Below are positions 24,066-30,707 of a stretch of DNA of 59,221 bases, one piece after another. Source of the DNA: Cytophagaceae bacterium (GTDB lineage: Bacteria > Bacteroidota > Bacteroidia > Cytophagales > Spirosomataceae); assembly GCA_024642485.1 (NCBI GenBank), contig JAHEAY010000001.1, forward strand, positions 1 through 59,221, in the 5' to 3' direction. A program made the position numbers and the translations under genes. A model generated the notes under the pieces. The model was given only the letters and a program-made list of their open reading frames with translations. It searched no databases and had not been told where the DNA came from. Every line of letters begins with the position of its first letter. Position 1 is the first letter of the stretch.

Positions 24066-24518
24066 ATGCGCTCCATTGAAAAGCCGAACCCTGCAGATCA
24101 GAAATTAGCCAAAGCCACTTTTGAAGTCATTCGAAATGAGCGTGGCAATTATCGAACAAAACGCAAAAGTCGTATTACGCTCCATTTTAAGGAAACTAAT
24201 ACGAGTGCCCAACTACCCGAACATGCGATTCCTTTAATTGAGGAAATGTTGAAATTGATGGCAGAGGGAAAAGCTTTCTCAATTGTACCTACAGATTCCG
24301 CATTAAGCTCACAGGAAGCCGCTGATATATTACAAGTATCGAGACCCCACATGGTTCATTTGATGGAAGAGGGTAAAATTCCGCATTATAAAGTGGGAAG
24401 CCATCGAAGGGTGTTGCAAGAGGATTTGGTAGCATACCAAAGGGATTTGAAAAAATCCAGAGAAGATAATTTAGCACTTATTGCCAAGCAAGCACAGGAA
24501 GATTCATTGGACTACTAA
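24066..24518 (+). CDS. Antitoxin with excisionase-type helix-turn-helix
   Basis: 150 aa. The C-terminal half contains an excisionase/MerR-like HTH (SSQEAADILQVSRPHMVHLM, then GKIPHYKVGSHRRVLQEDLVAY), typical of DNA-binding antitoxins that partner PIN toxins. The N-terminal half (about 1-70) is basic and may be the toxin-binding part. Its stop overlaps the toxin ATG by 1 nt (TAATG). Likely binds the large palindrome directly upstream. It should neutralise and co-repress the toxin. Confidence 0.83.
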   Translation: MRSIEKPNPADQKLAKATFEVIRNERGNYRTKRKSRITLHFKETNTSAQLPEHAIPLIEEMLKLMAEGKAFSIVPTDSALSSQEAADILQVSRPHMVHLMEEGKIPHYKVGSHRRVLQEDLVAYQRDLKKSREDNLALIAKQAQEDSLDY

Positions 24519-25069
24519 TGCTAAAGGCTGTACTTGATGCTTGCGTAATTTACCCAGCTCCGATTCGTGATTTATTACTCAGCCTAGCAGATGTAGGGCT
24601 ATTCAAGCCATTTTGGTCCGATGAAATTAACCAAGAATGGGGTCGGAACTTGTTGATTAAAAGGCCTGACATATCACCCATCAAAATAGCGATGACAGTT
24701 CAAGCCATGAACGATTCATTTCCTGATGCTAATATTAAGCAGGATAAATCTATTATCAGTCATTTAAACCTACCCGATCTAAATGATCTCCATATTTTGG
24801 CAACAGCGATTTCAAGTGGGTCAAGCTACATCATCACTTCCAATTTAAAAGACTTTCCAAATGATCAGCTCAGACATTTTTCCATCGAGGCAATCGATCC
24901 AGATTCCTTTATCTTAAACCTCTTCCGAGAACAAGATGTCCTAGCAAATTTCGCTTTCGAAAACCAAATTAAGCGATTGAAACACCCTCCATTATATAAA
25001 ACAGAAGTATTAACAATTTTTGAGAAATTGGGTTTGATTCGAACGAGCCAATATATAAAAGGCCTATAA
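24518..25069 (+). CDS. PIN-domain toxin (VapC-like ribonuclease)
   Basis: 183 aa. PIN catalytic acids are visible: D7 (VLDACV), an acid in SDEINQEW (E36/E40), D87/D90 (DLNDLHILATA) and D112 (TSNLKDFP). The first 130 residues form the PIN domain with the reading LYPAPIRDLLLSLA-like typical of the PIN_3 clade, and about 50 C-terminal residues are an added helical tail. Predicted metal-dependent endoribonuclease, the toxin of a type II TA pair. Ends 6 nt into the convergent gene. Confidence 0.83.
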   Translation: MLKAVLDACVIYPAPIRDLLLSLADVGLFKPFWSDEINQEWGRNLLIKRPDISPIKIAMTVQAMNDSFPDANIKQDKSIISHLNLPDLNDLHILATAISSGSSYIITSNLKDFPNDQLRHFSIEAIDPDSFILNLFREQDVLANFAFENQIKRLKHPPLYKTEVLTIFEKLGLIRTSQYIKGL

Positions 25070-25777: not shown

Positions 25778-27241
25778 ATGTCCAAATCTCCCATCCATAT
25801 TGTCTGGTTTAAACGTGATCTCCGATTTACAGATCATGAACCTTTGTACCGGGCATTGGAGTCGGACATCCCCGTTTTACTGGTCTATTTTTTTGAACCT
25901 TCGATGATGGCATTCCCCGACAGCGATCTACGTCACTGGCGATTTGTGCATGAATCTTTGATGGAAATGCAAGGGCGTTTGGAAGATCGGAACGGGATCC
26001 TCTATATTTTCCACAACGAAGTGCTGCCTGTGTTTCAGGCTTTGGCGGAACAATTTGATATACGCCAAATTTCCTCTCATGAAGAGATTGGGAATGATTT
26101 GAGTTTTCAACGGGACAAGTCGGTGGCGGCTTTTTGTAAGCAGCCCAACATTACTTGGAGAGAAACGCCAACCGGCGGTGTCATTCGCCGCTTGAAATCC
26201 CGAAAAACTTGGCAAGAGCGCTGGGAAAAAACGATGCGACAAGAGCCCTTTTTTGTTCGAGAGGACAATTGGAATTTAGCACGATTAGACTCGGCTTTTT
26301 ATGACGCCTTTAAAGGTCCCGAACTTCCCATGTCTTTTAAAACGCGGAATCCTATTTTCCAAGAAGGTGGCGAATACTGGGGCTGGAAGTACATGAAAAG
26401 TTTCATCGAAACTCGGCACACGGCTTACAGCTCCTCCATCAGCAAACCGGAGGCTAGTCGACGAGGATGCAGCCGAATCTCCCCCTATTTAGCCTACGGA
26501 AATATCAGTATGCGGATGGCCTATACCTACACGATGCAGCATTACAAAAGCGCTGCGAATAAACGCGCGCTGCAAAATTTCATTTCCCGTTTGCATTGGC
26601 AAGGGCATTTCATCCAAAAATTCGAAGATGAATCGCGGATGGAATTTGAACCGGTCAACAAGGCCTATCAAGCGCTGGAGAAAGACCGCGATGAGCGTTT
26701 AATTCAGGCTTGGCAAGCAGGCCAAACGGGCGTTCCGCTGATCGATGCTTGCATGCGCTGCGTGGTCGCGACGGGTTATTTGAATTTCCGGATGCGGGCG
26801 ATGGTTGTATCTTTTTTCGTCTTTAATCTCTGGCAGGATTGGCGTGATTTGGCACATTTTTTAGCCCGTCAATTTCTCGACTATGAACCCGGAATTCACT
26901 ACCCGCAAATCCAAATGCAAGCAGGAGTAACGGGCATCAATACCATCCGAATTTATAACCCAGTTAAGAATTCCTACACACACGATCCAGACGGCGTTTT
27001 CATCAAAAAATGGGTGCCGGAATTAGCCGCGGTTCCAGCGACGCTAATTCATGAACCCTGGAAATTAAGCGACATGGAGCAGACTTTGTTTGGGGTGAAA
27101 ATCGGTGTGGATTATCCCGCTCCCGTCGTGGATTTAAGTGCGACAAGAAAGACGGCATCGGATCAAGTTTGGGCGATGCGGAAAACGAAAAAGGCCCGAC
27201 AAGAGGGGGCGCGAATCCTCGAAAAACACGTGAATAAATGA
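25778..27241 (+). CDS. Photolyase/cryptochrome-family flavoprotein with altered Trp region
   Basis: 487 aa. N-terminal alpha/beta antenna-binding domain ([17 protein letters not shown]) and C-terminal FAD domain ([45 protein letters not shown]). At the place where CPD photolyases have a W-Q-W pair after the DLAxN region, this protein reads HYPQIQM (I378, M380), so the proximal Trp of the electron-transfer triad seems missing or moved. It keeps [10 protein letters not shown] and a KKWVPEL tail. Member of the photolyase superfamily; CPD repair is not assured and photoreceptor function is possible. Overlaps the next gene by 4 nt. Confidence 0.88.
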
Positions 27242-28677
27242 GCGCATTCCTGATTTTTCCGCACCAATTATTTGAAGAAACAATCGCTCAAGAAGCGGAT
27301 GTTTTCTATGTCGTGGAATCGGATTTGTTCTTCAAACAATATGCCTTCCACAAACAAAAACTGATCTTCCATCGGGCCAGCATGCGGGCCTTCGCGGATC
27401 GCCTCCGCGCCGCAGGGAAATCGGTGGAATACATTGATGCGCAGGACCCTCGTTCTTCTGAAGTCGAACTTGTTTCGTCTATTTCAGACACAATTACCCT
27501 ATTTGATCCCAATGATTATCTGCTCGAACGCCGACTGCGTCGCGCCGGAGATATTCACTTGTTGGCTAGCCCGAATTTCCTCAACACCGACACCTCCCTG
27601 CTCGGCACCCGTAAACCCTATTTCCAAACAGCCTTCTATACCCAGCAGCGAAAAGATCGCGGGATTCTGCTCGAGGCCGACGGAAAACCGCAGGGAGGCC
27701 ATTGGACTTTCGATGCGGAGAACCGGAAGAAAATTCCGAAAAACACCTTCATCCCGGCACCCTTTCCAGAGACCGTTCCGAATGATTATATCCTTGAAGC
27801 CATCGACTATGTCGCTACCCACTTCACAAATAATCCGGGTTCTTCAGAACGTCCCTTTACAGGTGCTTATTATCCCGTCACTCATGGCGAGGCACAGGCT
27901 GCTTTGGACCAATTCATCAAGGAACGCATGCCGCTTTTCGGGGATTACGAGGATGCCATCAAAGCCAATGAAAAGACCTTGTTTCACAGCATCTTGAGTC
28001 CACTGATTAATGTAGGATTGTTGAATCCGAATCAAGTTATCGAACGTGTTGCCGCCTCCGCCGCACCATTAAATAGCGTGGAGGGATTCATTCGACAGGT
28101 AGTTGGTTGGCGTGAATTTGTCCAATTGTTGTATCGGAAAATCGGGGTCCAACAGCGTACTACAAATTATTGGGGATTTACGAATGAGATGCCCGCGGCC
28201 TTTTACAACGGGACCACAGGTGTGGAACCCATCGACCAAACGATACGCAAGCTCTTAAAAACGGGCTATAATCACCACATTGAGCGCCTCATGGTGTTGG
28301 GTAATTTTATGTTATTGTGCGAAATCAAGCCGGATGCGGTCTATCGCTGGTTCATGGAAATGTACATAGATGCCTACGATTGGGTGATGGTGCCCAACAT
28401 CTACGGCATGTCGCAATTTAGCGATGGCGGATTAATGACCACCAAACCCTACATCTGCGGGTCCAATTACATCCTGAAAATGAGTGATTACCCGAAGGGC
28501 GAGTGGCAAGAAATTTGGGATGGATTATTTTGGCGATTCTTGGATAAACAACGCGAAACCTTCCGCAAAAATCCCCGTTGGGCCATGCTCATCAGCACCT
28601 GGGACAAAATGCCTGTGGAAAAACGAGAGGCACATCTTACGCGCGCAGAAACCTTTTTAGCGCAATTGTTTGCTTAG
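27238..28677 (+). CDS. FeS-BCP/PhrB-like photolyase without cluster cysteines
   Basis: 479 aa. It belongs to the prokaryotic (6-4) photolyase/CryPro clade: no FKRDLR antenna start but FPHQLFE, the long [13 protein letters not shown] helix, MSQFSDGG and [16 protein letters not shown]. In PhrB the stretch after SDY carries two cysteines and a third in a CPFN motif; here it reads [15 protein letters not shown] (418-432), and the position of the first ligand Cys appears to be a Pro (about 331). So the [4Fe-4S] cluster appears lost. Coupled to the preceding photolyase by an ATGA overlap; its end overlaps the next, convergent gene by 21 nt. Confidence 0.87.
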
Positions 28678-29733
28678 TTTATTCCAAAACGAGAAGAAAC
28701 TATTGAACTCCCCTTGTAGGCCAGGAGCCAAGGACGGATGCACCTCACGAATACCCTGAAAATGGGCATTGATTGGGTGATCTCGGAAAATGCCGTGCAC
28801 CTTTAGATCGGAATATTCCCCATAATAAACTTGAATCCCCGGAATGTTTTCGGCGAGTGAAAGGATAAACTCAATCGTCTTGGGAGCCATCGGATGTTTC
28901 GCAAAATGACTCGGTTCTAAGACCAGAATCCGATTGCCGGCTTCCCCCTCATGGAAGCTAGGATCCAGCGTATAATGGGTATAAATGAAGGTGGGAATAC
29001 CATCGATTAAATCCAGCGGCTTTGTATTAGGCGGAGTAAATGGAAGCGATGCTTCGACCGAGCTACGTAAATGTTCGGGAGGAGATTTCAATGGTAAATC
29101 CTCGTAATCGAAATCCAGAAATGTTCCTTGCTGCTTGCTACCCGTATAACGATTGATATTTTCTTGGTTCGCGTAATACAATTTGTTGCTGAAGGTGCCG
29201 GCGCACCATTGCCAACTCAGCGCATTACTCGCCAAATCGCCGTCCAATAAATGGTAATACATCCACTGAGCAGGTTCTAGCCAATGGTATTTCGCCACAT
29301 TACAAATCGTGGCTGCCAAATACATGCGGAGATGATTGTGCAAGTAGCCTGTTTCCGGAAATGGAGCTAGCTGTGTATCTAAGGCCTGGATTCCCGTCTT
29401 GGATGCTAATACGGCACGAGGTATCCCGAAGCGTTCAATGCCCTCCTGCGGATGGCGAATGTCCTCAAAAATTCCATCGCCTTTTTGAAACCAAGTCCGC
29501 GTGTAAAACTCCCGCCAGGCTAATTCTTGAATGAATTTTTCCGCTTGTTCCAAGCCGATTGCACGGTCTTTCAGTCGCTTGACAACTTGTGGAACGGTGA
29601 TAAATCCGCGGGATAAATAGGGGGATAAATAAGACACGCCACCCGTGATAAAATTACGCGATCGAGCATAATGCTCGGGGTCGAATTGGTCGATGCGCTG
29701 ATATACCTCGGCAAGTTTCGTTGGGAATTCCAC
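28657..29733 (-). CDS. Photolyase-like protein lacking the N-terminal antenna domain, with a C-terminal alpha/beta part
   Basis: 358 aa. It starts directly at the FAD-binding domain (YARSRNFITGGVSYLSPYLS at 22-41) and keeps ELAWREFY, GYLHNHLRMYLAATI, DGDLASNALSWQWCAGT and NINRYTG, including the W-Q-W pair. Residues about 230-358 form an alpha/beta-looking domain (RILVLEPSHFAKHP, IQVYYGEYSDL). The order therefore looks reversed from normal photolyases. Start is GTG at 29733, overlapping the TIGR03643 stop (TAGTG), so no antenna domain can be hidden upstream. Role in DNA repair or sensing is unknown. Confidence 0.85.
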   Translation of the reverse strand: MEFPTKLAEVYQRIDQFDPEHYARSRNFITGGVSYLSPYLSRGFITVPQVVKRLKDRAIGLEQAEKFIQELAWREFYTRTWFQKGDGIFEDIRHPQEGIERFGIPRAVLASKTGIQALDTQLAPFPETGYLHNHLRMYLAATICNVAKYHWLEPAQWMYYHLLDGDLASNALSWQWCAGTFSNKLYYANQENINRYTGSKQQGTFLDFDYEDLPLKSPPEHLRSSVEASLPFTPPNTKPLDLIDGIPTFIYTHYTLDPSFHEGEAGNRILVLEPSHFAKHPMAPKTIEFILSLAENIPGIQVYYGEYSDLKVHGIFRDHPINAHFQGIREVHPSLAPGLQGEFNSFFSFWNKLSKQLR

Positions 29734-30029
29734 TAGCGCTTACTGATTTTGTTCATACTAATGCTGCGTTGTAACGTACATTTAAATCGGGGGTCTAGAG
29801 CGACGCGTTTTTGCAGGTGTTTCGTATTCCGGCCGGCCATCCGCTTACGCCACATGCGAAAACTGGAATCCTTGCTATTCAGGCGCATGAATTCGATGAC
29901 CTCTTTTTCCTTTAGGCCAAACTGAAATTCGATCGCCTCAAAAGGCGTGCGATCTTCCCAGGCCATTTGGATGATTCGGTCAATGTCCTCATCGGTAAAT
30001 TTATTTGCTACGTCTGCACTTTTCACCAC
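29733..30029 (-). CDS. TIGR03643 family protein
   Basis: 98 aa. It matches the TIGR03643 (DUF2805) pattern: FTDEDIDRIIQMAWEDRTPFEAIEFQFGLKEKEVIEFMR, a probable small helix-turn-helix fold, then FRMWRKRMAGRNTKHLQKR, basic and likely nucleic acid binding. Genes of this family often stand next to cryptochrome-like genes, as here, with 1-nt overlap to the FAD-domain photolyase and 29-nt overlap to the DUF2256 gene. Function is not known. Confidence 0.85.
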   Translation of the reverse strand: MVKSADVANKFTDEDIDRIIQMAWEDRTPFEAIEFQFGLKEKEVIEFMRLNSKDSSFRMWRKRMAGRNTKHLQKRVALDPRFKCTLQRSISMNKISKR

Positions 30030-30138
30030 AGTAGATGATTTGATCCCAATTCTTTTCCCACTTCTTGCGCCAGGCGAAAGGGCGGTTGCAAACGGGGCAG
30101 ATTTTGGAGGGTAAATGTTGTTTTTTAACGCCTTGCAT
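30001..30138 (-). CDS. DUF2256 small zinc-ribbon-like protein
   Basis: A 45-codon gene, easily missed. The protein begins MQGVKKQHLPSKICPVCNRP, continues with FAWRKKWEKNWD, and has CGEKC near the end: two CxxC pairs (C14/C17 and C37/C41) likely holding zinc. This is the DUF2256 family, which is associated with cryptochrome-like genes. The start at 30138 lies just after the terminator of the DinB-like gene, so a promoter must be between, or the terminator leaks. It overlaps TIGR03643 by 29 nt in another frame. Confidence 0.85.
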   Translation of the reverse strand: MQGVKKQHLPSKICPVCNRPFAWRKKWEKNWDQIIYCGEKCRRSK

Positions 30139-30173
30139 AAAAAAGGGCTTGCCTATGAAAGACAAACCCTTTT
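30139..30173 (-). terminator. Terminator of the DinB-like gene
   Basis: Stem AAAAGGG (30141-30147) / CCCTTTT (30167-30173) with a further TTG / CAA pairing inside; on the minus strand it is followed by T residues. It ends directly before the DUF2256 start codon. Confidence 0.7.
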
Positions 30174-30191: not shown

Positions 30192-30707
30192 CTAGAACAA
30201 TTTCTCTTGTGGAGGCGTCGCGCCAGCCAAACGGATATACACCGTTGCTTGTCCGCGGTGGTGTGTTTGGTGTTCAAAGGCTTTGTCGATCGCTTGGCCT
30301 TTTGTCATATCGAAACGTCCAAACAATTTTACCGACTCCGCTAATTTCGCATCCGGTACATTTTTGATCGCGTTGATGGCAAAATCATAGGCAGCTAACA
30401 CTTTCTCGGTTACGCTTGCTTTCGCCACGTCATTCGATTTTTCCAAATCCTTTGCCGTAGGAGCTACGTCCGTTGCCGTTCCCACAAACATGTAAATCGC
30501 ATCTGAAAGGTGAAGCATTTGGCCAGCAAAAGAACGCATTTCTTTCGTTGGCTTTAAGGCATAACCCGTTTCAGGCATTGCGTCTAAGTATTCTTTCGTG
30601 TAAGCACGCGCGCGCTCCCAGTCTTTCAATAGGTTCGCTTTCGGAGTTTGAGCAGTCAGGTTGCTTGCCATGGCAAGGATTGCCAAAAAGGTGAATAGTT
30701 TTTTCAT
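30192..30707 (-). CDS. DinB-family protein with signal peptide
   Basis: 171 aa. A signal peptide (MKKLFTFLAILAMASNLTAQ) precedes a DinB four-helix bundle; metal ligands of the family are suggested by H in MLHLSDAIY and by HQTHHRGQ. DinB proteins bind a divalent metal and often act as thiol-dependent transferases; secretion to the periplasm is common in Bacteroidota members. It has its own promoter (-7 box 30729-30736) and terminator, so it is a single-gene unit. Confidence 0.82.
   Translation of the reverse strand: MKKLFTFLAILAMASNLTAQTPKANLLKDWERARAYTKEYLDAMPETGYALKPTKEMRSFAGQMLHLSDAIYMFVGTATDVAPTAKDLEKSNDVAKASVTEKVLAAYDFAINAIKNVPDAKLAESVKLFGRFDMTKGQAIDKAFEHQTHHRGQATVYIRLAGATPPQEKLF

Follow-up and report, generated by a model that had tools for sequence, protein, structure and literature searches.

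Three unusual photolyase genes and two microprotein genes form a conserved set in Bacteroidota, probably a light-driven DNA-repair module

Five overlapping genes at positions 25778-30138 of a 59,221-nt stretch of DNA from a freshwater Cytophagaceae bacterium (GenBank assembly GCA_024642485.1, contig JAHEAY010000001.1; this whole stretch is hereafter the window) encode three different members of the photolyase/cryptochrome family and two very small proteins. Gene content, conservation, co-occurrence, domain order and residue conservation, all of them observed directly, lead us to propose that the cluster is probably a light-driven DNA-repair module of the Bacteroidota, made up of two photolyases (g2 and g3), a divergent family member (g1) and two accessory microproteins (g4 and g5). 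The host is represented by a 2.54-Mb metagenome-assembled genome (MAG), 89% complete, of which the window is contig C197; in a profile search of this MAG, g1, g2 and g3 were the only genes with the photolyase FAD domain (PF03441).

In the list of open reading frames (ORFs) of the window, the five genes overlap end to end. The plus strand carries g1 (25778-27241; 487 aa; PF00875 and PF03441), from a divergent clade of the photolyase/cryptochrome family, and g2 (27238-28677; 479 aa; PF04244, or DPRP, and PF03441), a putative prokaryotic (6-4)-type photolyase of the DPRP family; the two overlap by 4 nt. Converging on g2, with an overlap of the gene ends of 21 nt (28657-28677), is the minus-strand gene g3 (28657-29733; PF03441 only), a photolyase with its FAD domain at the N-terminus and an alpha/beta domain behind it. 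Upstream of it on the same strand, g4 (29733-30029; 98 aa), a small TIGR03643/DUF2805 protein that scores above both the NCBIfam and the Pfam (PF10985) cut-offs, shares 1 nt with g3, and its ORF shares 29 nt with g5 (30001-30138; 45 aa), a zinc-finger-like DUF2256 microprotein with four cysteines. The mechanically called ORF of g5 begins at a TTG at 30165 (54 aa), but the homologues agree better with the ATG at 30138. A reading made earlier from the letters alone (the sequence-only reading) had described this arrangement of strands and overlaps and had picked out a hidden DUF2256 gene starting at that ATG; the ORF coordinates bear out the former, and a PF10013 score over the cut-off, together with the homologues, the latter. 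We rejected chance overlap of ORFs because the families score over curated cut-offs and are conserved. Even the 21-nt overlap of g2 and g3 recurs exactly in 13 of the 15 Aquirufa-like loci that have the two genes on opposite strands, the other two having 53 nt.

The set is conserved as a neighbourhood well beyond the host. Among 148 evenly sampled Bacteroidota genomes, 14 contained full-length g3, the host included; the other 13 loci were combined with the best 80 of at least 553 relatives in named genome contigs, a biased top slice, and the resulting 93 loci reduce to 91 distinct ones (L059 lacks a usable g3, and L121 is the same locus as L037). All 91 have another member of the set within 6 kb of g3: g2 in 74, g4 in 65, g5 in 63, g1 in 36 and all four in 24. 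When the 16 Aquirufa-like loci are left aside, the remaining 75 have g2 in 59, g4 in 49, g5 in 49, g1 in 25 and all four in 15, and each of the 13 even-sample loci has a member nearby (g2 in nine, g5 in nine, g4 in six, g1 in two). Clustering of the five genes is not due to chance. Several Flavobacteria show an operon-like order on one strand, g4-g3-(g1)-(gap gene)-g5-g2; between lineages the order, strand and partner of the set genes differ. Clustering of the neighbouring genes also identified a family, with a flavin reductase-like (PF01613) representative, in the vicinity of g3: it occurs in 31 loci, in 29 of them on the strand of g3, at a median distance of 115 nt. A second family with such a representative occurs in eight.

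Other recurrent neighbours of g3 include a short-chain dehydrogenase (SDR) family (representative PF13561/PF00106), the second commonest, in 20 loci (for example L088, 12305-13084, minus strand); an SDR gene also lies between DUF2256 and the photolyases on a Vibrio parahaemolyticus plasmid. A protein judged by eye to be a phytoene-desaturase-like FAD protein is encoded near g3 on the same strand, at a median of 73 nt, in five distinct loci (L034, L036, L037, L041 and L043), a possible link to carotenoid genes. One contig titled Rhodobacteraceae (L114) bears a Bacteroidota-type g3-g1 pair; as the phylum sample built around its genome is that of the Bacteroidota, its title looks wrong.

Across the 148 genomes, DUF2256 follows the DPRP-type enzyme whether or not the genes are adjacent. 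The DUF2256 search gave 50 matches at E<=0.001, from which two partial ones were excluded, G082 above the cut-off and G011 under it, each of which would have added a genome with DUF2256 but no DPRP; DPRP was found in 49 genomes, TIGR03643 in 43 (41 over the cut-off used) and g1, at E<=1e-60, in 20. Both DUF2256 and DPRP occur in 46 genomes, DUF2256 alone in two, DPRP alone in three and neither in 97 (Fisher p 4e-32), and the two lie within 6 kb of each other in 22 of the 46, a lower bound given the draft contigs. TIGR03643 and DUF2256 occur together in 37 genomes and are both missing from 96, with 4 and 11 discordant. Every genome with g3 (14/14) and every genome with g1 (20/20) holds both DPRP and DUF2256, and 12 of the 14 g3 genomes hold TIGR03643. 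A replicate of 50 further genomes inside the same phylum gave a somewhat looser association (both 12, DPRP only 4, DUF2256 only 2, neither 32; p 1e-6). Where a photolyase FAD domain was matched but DPRP was not, DUF2256 was found in 2 of 38 genomes of the first sample and 2 of 12 of the replicate; pooled, it is present in 58 of 65 DPRP genomes versus 4 of 50 genomes with other photolyases only. The suggestion that DUF2256 is tied to cryptochrome-like genes thus needs narrowing, the tie being weaker to photolyases at large than to genomes with a DPRP enzyme. That DUF2256 and DPRP co-occur even when their genes lie far apart points to functional dependence over linkage alone.

The g2 protein has the features of prokaryotic (6-4) photolyases, namely the DPRP and FAD domains and an HHxxRLM motif (as HHIERLM), and the solved structure that its sequence matches best is 9hnk, entitled as a (6-4) photolyase of Caulobacter. 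The motif, as HH[IL]xRLM, is present in 67 of 73 distinct proteins, comprising g2 and g3-linked homologues. Judged against C350, C438, C441 and C454 of an Acinetobacter protein, g2 is without all four cysteines of the iron-sulphur (Fe-S) cluster and so lies outside the FeS-BCP definition; of the same 73 proteins, 71 have none of the four and show a deletion of the loop, and two (L040 and L088) have all four. Going by these sequence features, g2 is most likely a cluster-less prokaryotic (6-4) photolyase, its activity being predicted.

The FAD domain of g3 occupies residues 1 to about 230 (PF03441 at 67-188) and is followed by an alpha/beta domain at about 240-358. An AlphaFold2 model built on an alignment of 14 homologues (pLDDT 90.5, pTM 0.89) consists of the helical FAD domain and then a beta-beta-alpha-alpha-beta-beta-beta-alpha domain with strands and helices at 248-357, and the C-terminal domain modelled alone, from 60 sequences, reached a pLDDT of 93.5. 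Because a folded C-terminal domain is predicted, we ruled out a truncated photolyase. Its domain order, FAD N-terminal and alpha/beta C-terminal, is that of the NewPHL/SPL proteins (described in PMC13274461 and PMC9649867). Since the inversion has been published for these (PMC13274461), g3 is best seen, as far as its sequence goes, as a branch of this class from the Bacteroidota. Among the matches listed, its closest named relatives are Cytophagaceae MAGs and Aquirufa antheringensis, at 87-89% identity.

For g3 as for g1, residues were mapped by reading HMMER alignments to 1np7, a cyanobacterial DASH protein, and 1owl, a CPD (cyclobutane pyrimidine dimer) photolyase, and checking the letters; the numbered positions we take to be those of the Trp triad, the CPD contacts and the Asn near flavin N5. 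Relative to 1owl, g3 keeps E283, W286, N349, M353 and W392 as E70, W73, N133, M137 and W176, which are CPD-type lesion contacts, and R350 is replaced by H134. By analogy with the NewPHL/SPL enzymes, g3 most likely repairs CPDs, perhaps in single-stranded DNA.

The origin of the second domain of g3 is less clear. Pfam scans of five sequences gave no match of note, and neither a PDB sequence search (nothing significant) nor Foldseek against the PDB (nothing at E<=0.001) found a relative. Several profiles were tried, of which a joint antenna profile did best, with a weak hhalign match (probability 26.8, E 7e-4) whose score exceeded those of all 600 column shuffles and also the score of the DPRP N-terminal domain on the same profile (22.8); with only the Deinococcus domain or only the class-I domains as reference, 3 and 4 of 100 shuffles reached the score. 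Comparison by hhalign with the separate N-terminal domains of g1 and g2 gave no match, but g1 against g2 gave none either, so this carries little weight. That the second domain is homologous to the antenna domain is thus only weakly supported. It is better supported in the SPL-like proteins of Deinococcus, which provide the best bridge to the antenna domain and have it in the inverted order: the genes, found on four plasmids, carry an antenna-like domain either fused behind the FAD domain (three plasmids) or as a separate ORF (one), PF00875 is matched in three of the four at E 2e-4 to 1e-3, below the Pfam gathering score, and hhalign relates the second domain to class-I antenna domains with a probability of 96. 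In the unfused case, a plasmid of Deinococcus sp. QL22 (L139, 3869-5160), the two genes overlap by 4 nt. None of five alphaproteobacterial SPL-like proteins scanned (for Asticcacaulis CB 48, the C-terminal part only) matched PF00875. The alphaproteobacterial genes (L140, L144, L148, L150 and L151) lie near genes for AarF/ABC1/UbiB kinases or DUF3429 proteins, and their fetched flanks contain no gene annotated as DUF2256.

The g1 protein has the class I CPD/DASH layout, an N-terminal antenna domain (PF00875) and a C-terminal FAD domain (PF03441), and falls in a clade with a support of 100/100 that includes plasmid copies from Salinivibrio and Vibrio fortis. Aligned to 1np7, it keeps the middle canonical Trp (W355), and the other two positions are not aromatic (I378 at W390, and the W314 position); N386, the usual Asn place near flavin N5, is His374, the CPD-contact Glu is replaced by Arg, and W392 by M380. 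With one of three Trp kept, g1 has neither the Trp triad nor the CPD-contact residues (Glu and Trp) that mark class I CPD/DASH enzymes. Its role is uncertain and could be that of a specialised repair enzyme or of a sensor. Each of the three photolyases had been described in the sequence-only reading as departing from the standard set in its own way; the altered Trp region of g1 and the lost cluster cysteines of g2 stand, and the missing antenna domain ascribed to g3 proves an incomplete description, as its C-terminal alpha/beta domain is confidently modelled.

The two small proteins belong to families named without reference to a function. In DUF2256 the pattern CxxC...C...C is strict, with all four cysteines invariant in 32 of 32 aligned sequences. 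Two reports place the family in the TRASH zinc-finger clan (PMC4047054) and among the highly frequent families of bacterial small proteins of <=50 aa (PMC11796252). Most of 28 TIGR03643 sequences share the core MAWEDRTPFEAI...FxxWRxR...KH, and the family appears, by eye, helix-turn-helix-like. For g4 a profile search of the PDB found nothing, and for g5 its best match, at E 0.12, was not significant. A general role of DUF2256 in Fe-S insertion is disfavoured because it also accompanies cluster-less enzymes such as g2. In the open-access literature, subscription papers being outside the search, we found no paper that names DUF2256 together with a photolyase; DUF2256, DUF2805 or TIGR03643 are mentioned there in just four papers, and the portions of text around the mentions are unrelated to photolyases. 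The link between DUF2256 and photolyases appears to be undescribed in the open papers searched.

Plasmids extend the distribution to other phyla. DUF2256 matched 133 plasmid records, and of nine regions viewed (one, from Spirosoma, of the Bacteroidota) three have an annotated photolyase within 5 kb, in Vibrio parahaemolyticus, Sphingomonas and Salinivibrio. TIGR03643 matched 43 plasmid records; of three regions viewed, that of Acinetobacter has DUF2256 and a photolyase gene next to it, and the other two contain none. In regions chosen by their g1 match, and hence biased, g1 overlaps DUF2256 in Salinivibrio, and in Vibrio fortis g1 is followed directly by a flavin reductase gene, with TIGR03643 about 3 kb off.

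How might such a module work? From the features above we infer catalytic activities, flavin binding, physical interaction and roles for the small proteins. The g2 enzyme would repair (6-4) lesions and g3 would repair CPDs, with g1 acting as a specialised repair enzyme or as a sensor. DUF2256 and TIGR03643 would be accessory proteins, most likely ones that bind DNA or the photolyases and thereby aid lesion targeting or enzyme maturation; a role of the two microproteins in assisting the repair enzymes is suggested by the many relatives in the phylum that share a large part of the set. More speculatively, prokaryotic (6-4) photolyases, with or without an Fe-S cluster, could have in DUF2256 a zinc-finger subunit of their own, one that forms with TIGR03643 a shared targeting or maturation platform for several photolyases differing in lesion specificity, in a multi-enzyme photorepair complex; we regard this extension as tentative. 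The idea of a coherent light-dependent module with small accessory proteins, put forward in the sequence-only reading, gains from the conserved gene set and the co-occurrence, with the correction that g3 does not simply want a second domain.

Repair is favoured because g2 and g3 retain (6-4)-like and CPD-like active-site residues, and the same retention of lesion contacts speaks against the cluster being primarily sensory. In a sensory module, g1 and perhaps others would be blue-light receptors, TIGR03643 a DNA-binding output and DUF2256 an adaptor, repair being secondary; the two non-aromatic Trp positions of g1, its His near N5 and its Arg for the CPD-contact Glu would suit such a role, as would the conserved basic core of TIGR03643 (such as WRKR...KH) and the regulatory roles reported for RsCryB, a FeS-BCP (PMC9178010). 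TIGR03643 is, however, missing from two of the 14 g3 genomes and has no other member nearby in 24 of the 41 genomes, and we consider a primarily sensory function unlikely. Doubtful, too, is a function centred on cofactors, in which DUF2256 would mature DPRP photolyases by loading flavin or antenna, rather than target them to DNA, and a flavin reductase would keep the FAD reduced. It would account for DUF2256 beside photolyases both with and without the Fe-S cysteines, where Fe-S insertion cannot be the general job, and for the flavin reductase-like family near g3 in so many loci, yet a zinc finger of 45 residues is small for a chaperone.

Finally, the genes might travel jointly as a UV-resistance package and yet be linked neither physically nor functionally; DUF2256 and TIGR03643 would then serve other DNA or metal tasks. 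The variation in gene order, strand and partner by lineage, the existence of plasmid copies and the plasmid regions in which DUF2256 stands alone fit such hitchhiking, but one-block transfer does not by itself predict the agreement between DUF2256 and DPRP without adjacency (46 genomes, 22 with the genes within 6 kb), and we think this explanation quite unlikely. Several observations nevertheless weigh against a repair module. Six of the nine plasmid regions with DUF2256 have no annotated photolyase, and in the pooled Bacteroidota genomes DUF2256 occurs without DPRP in four and DPRP without DUF2256 in seven. In 16 of 48 genomes the 6 kb to either side of DUF2256 contain none of g1, g2 and g3, and TIGR03643 has another member that close in just 17 of 41. 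Pairwise association above chance, on which the sequence-only reading had staked its case, is found inside the phylum for most pairs, though not for g1 and g3, held together by 3 of the 148 genomes (p 0.29). Co-occurrence could moreover be inflated by shared ancestry and light-exposed habitat, as the tests are not corrected for the tree. The outermost canonical Trp of g3 is lost (W314 to G98), and the window cluster is without a flavin reductase, the one PF01613 gene of the host MAG being on another contig.

Two features flank the cluster. A DinB-family gene (30192-30707, minus strand), which reads in the same direction as DUF2256 and stops about 53 nt before its start, could head a DinB-g5-g4-g3 transcript. 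On the other side, just outside the cluster, an HTH_17 gene is followed with a 1-nt overlap by a PIN_3-domain gene (24066-25069, plus strand), a toxin-antitoxin-like pair.

Photolyases are textbook single-polypeptide enzymes. Here, inverted-domain, cluster-less and Trp-poor photolyases stand in a conserved set with two microproteins whose names carry no function, one of which, DUF2256, tracks the (6-4)-type enzyme in the phylum. The set offers a direct and cheap route to the function of DUF2256 and TIGR03643 and to whether bacterial photorepair needs partners.

The enzyme kinds themselves are already known; what appears to be new is the make-up of the module and its association with DUF2256. 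Fe-S-less prokaryotic (6-4) photolyases have been described as subgroup M/PromaPL, and that account (PMC9178010) matches g2 in the DPRP and FAD domains, the HHxxRLM motif and the lack of the four cysteines, a likeness drawn by description, without subgroup M sequences. Like g3, NewPHL/SPL proteins have the FAD domain first and the alpha/beta domain next, and the FAD domains of the SPL-like proteins on Deinococcus and alphaproteobacterial plasmids are 30-36% identical to that of g3; unlike them, g3 falls in a clade of its own (100/98), and the branch joining both (19 rows) has a support of only 78/64. Proteobacteria, too, have clusters of photolyase, DUF2256 and TIGR03643 genes: on a plasmid of Acinetobacter piscicola, TIGR03643, DUF2256 and a DPRP-type photolyase lie side by side, but the photolyase has all four Fe-S cysteines and the stretch shown has no g3. 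The window also resembles, in the pairing of two different photolyase genes, the UV-B-inducible operon of Synechococcus PCC 7335, in which such genes are co-transcribed (PMC9649867); that operon, however, consists of two genes for other enzyme classes, and the main text of that paper names no DUF2256 or TIGR family.

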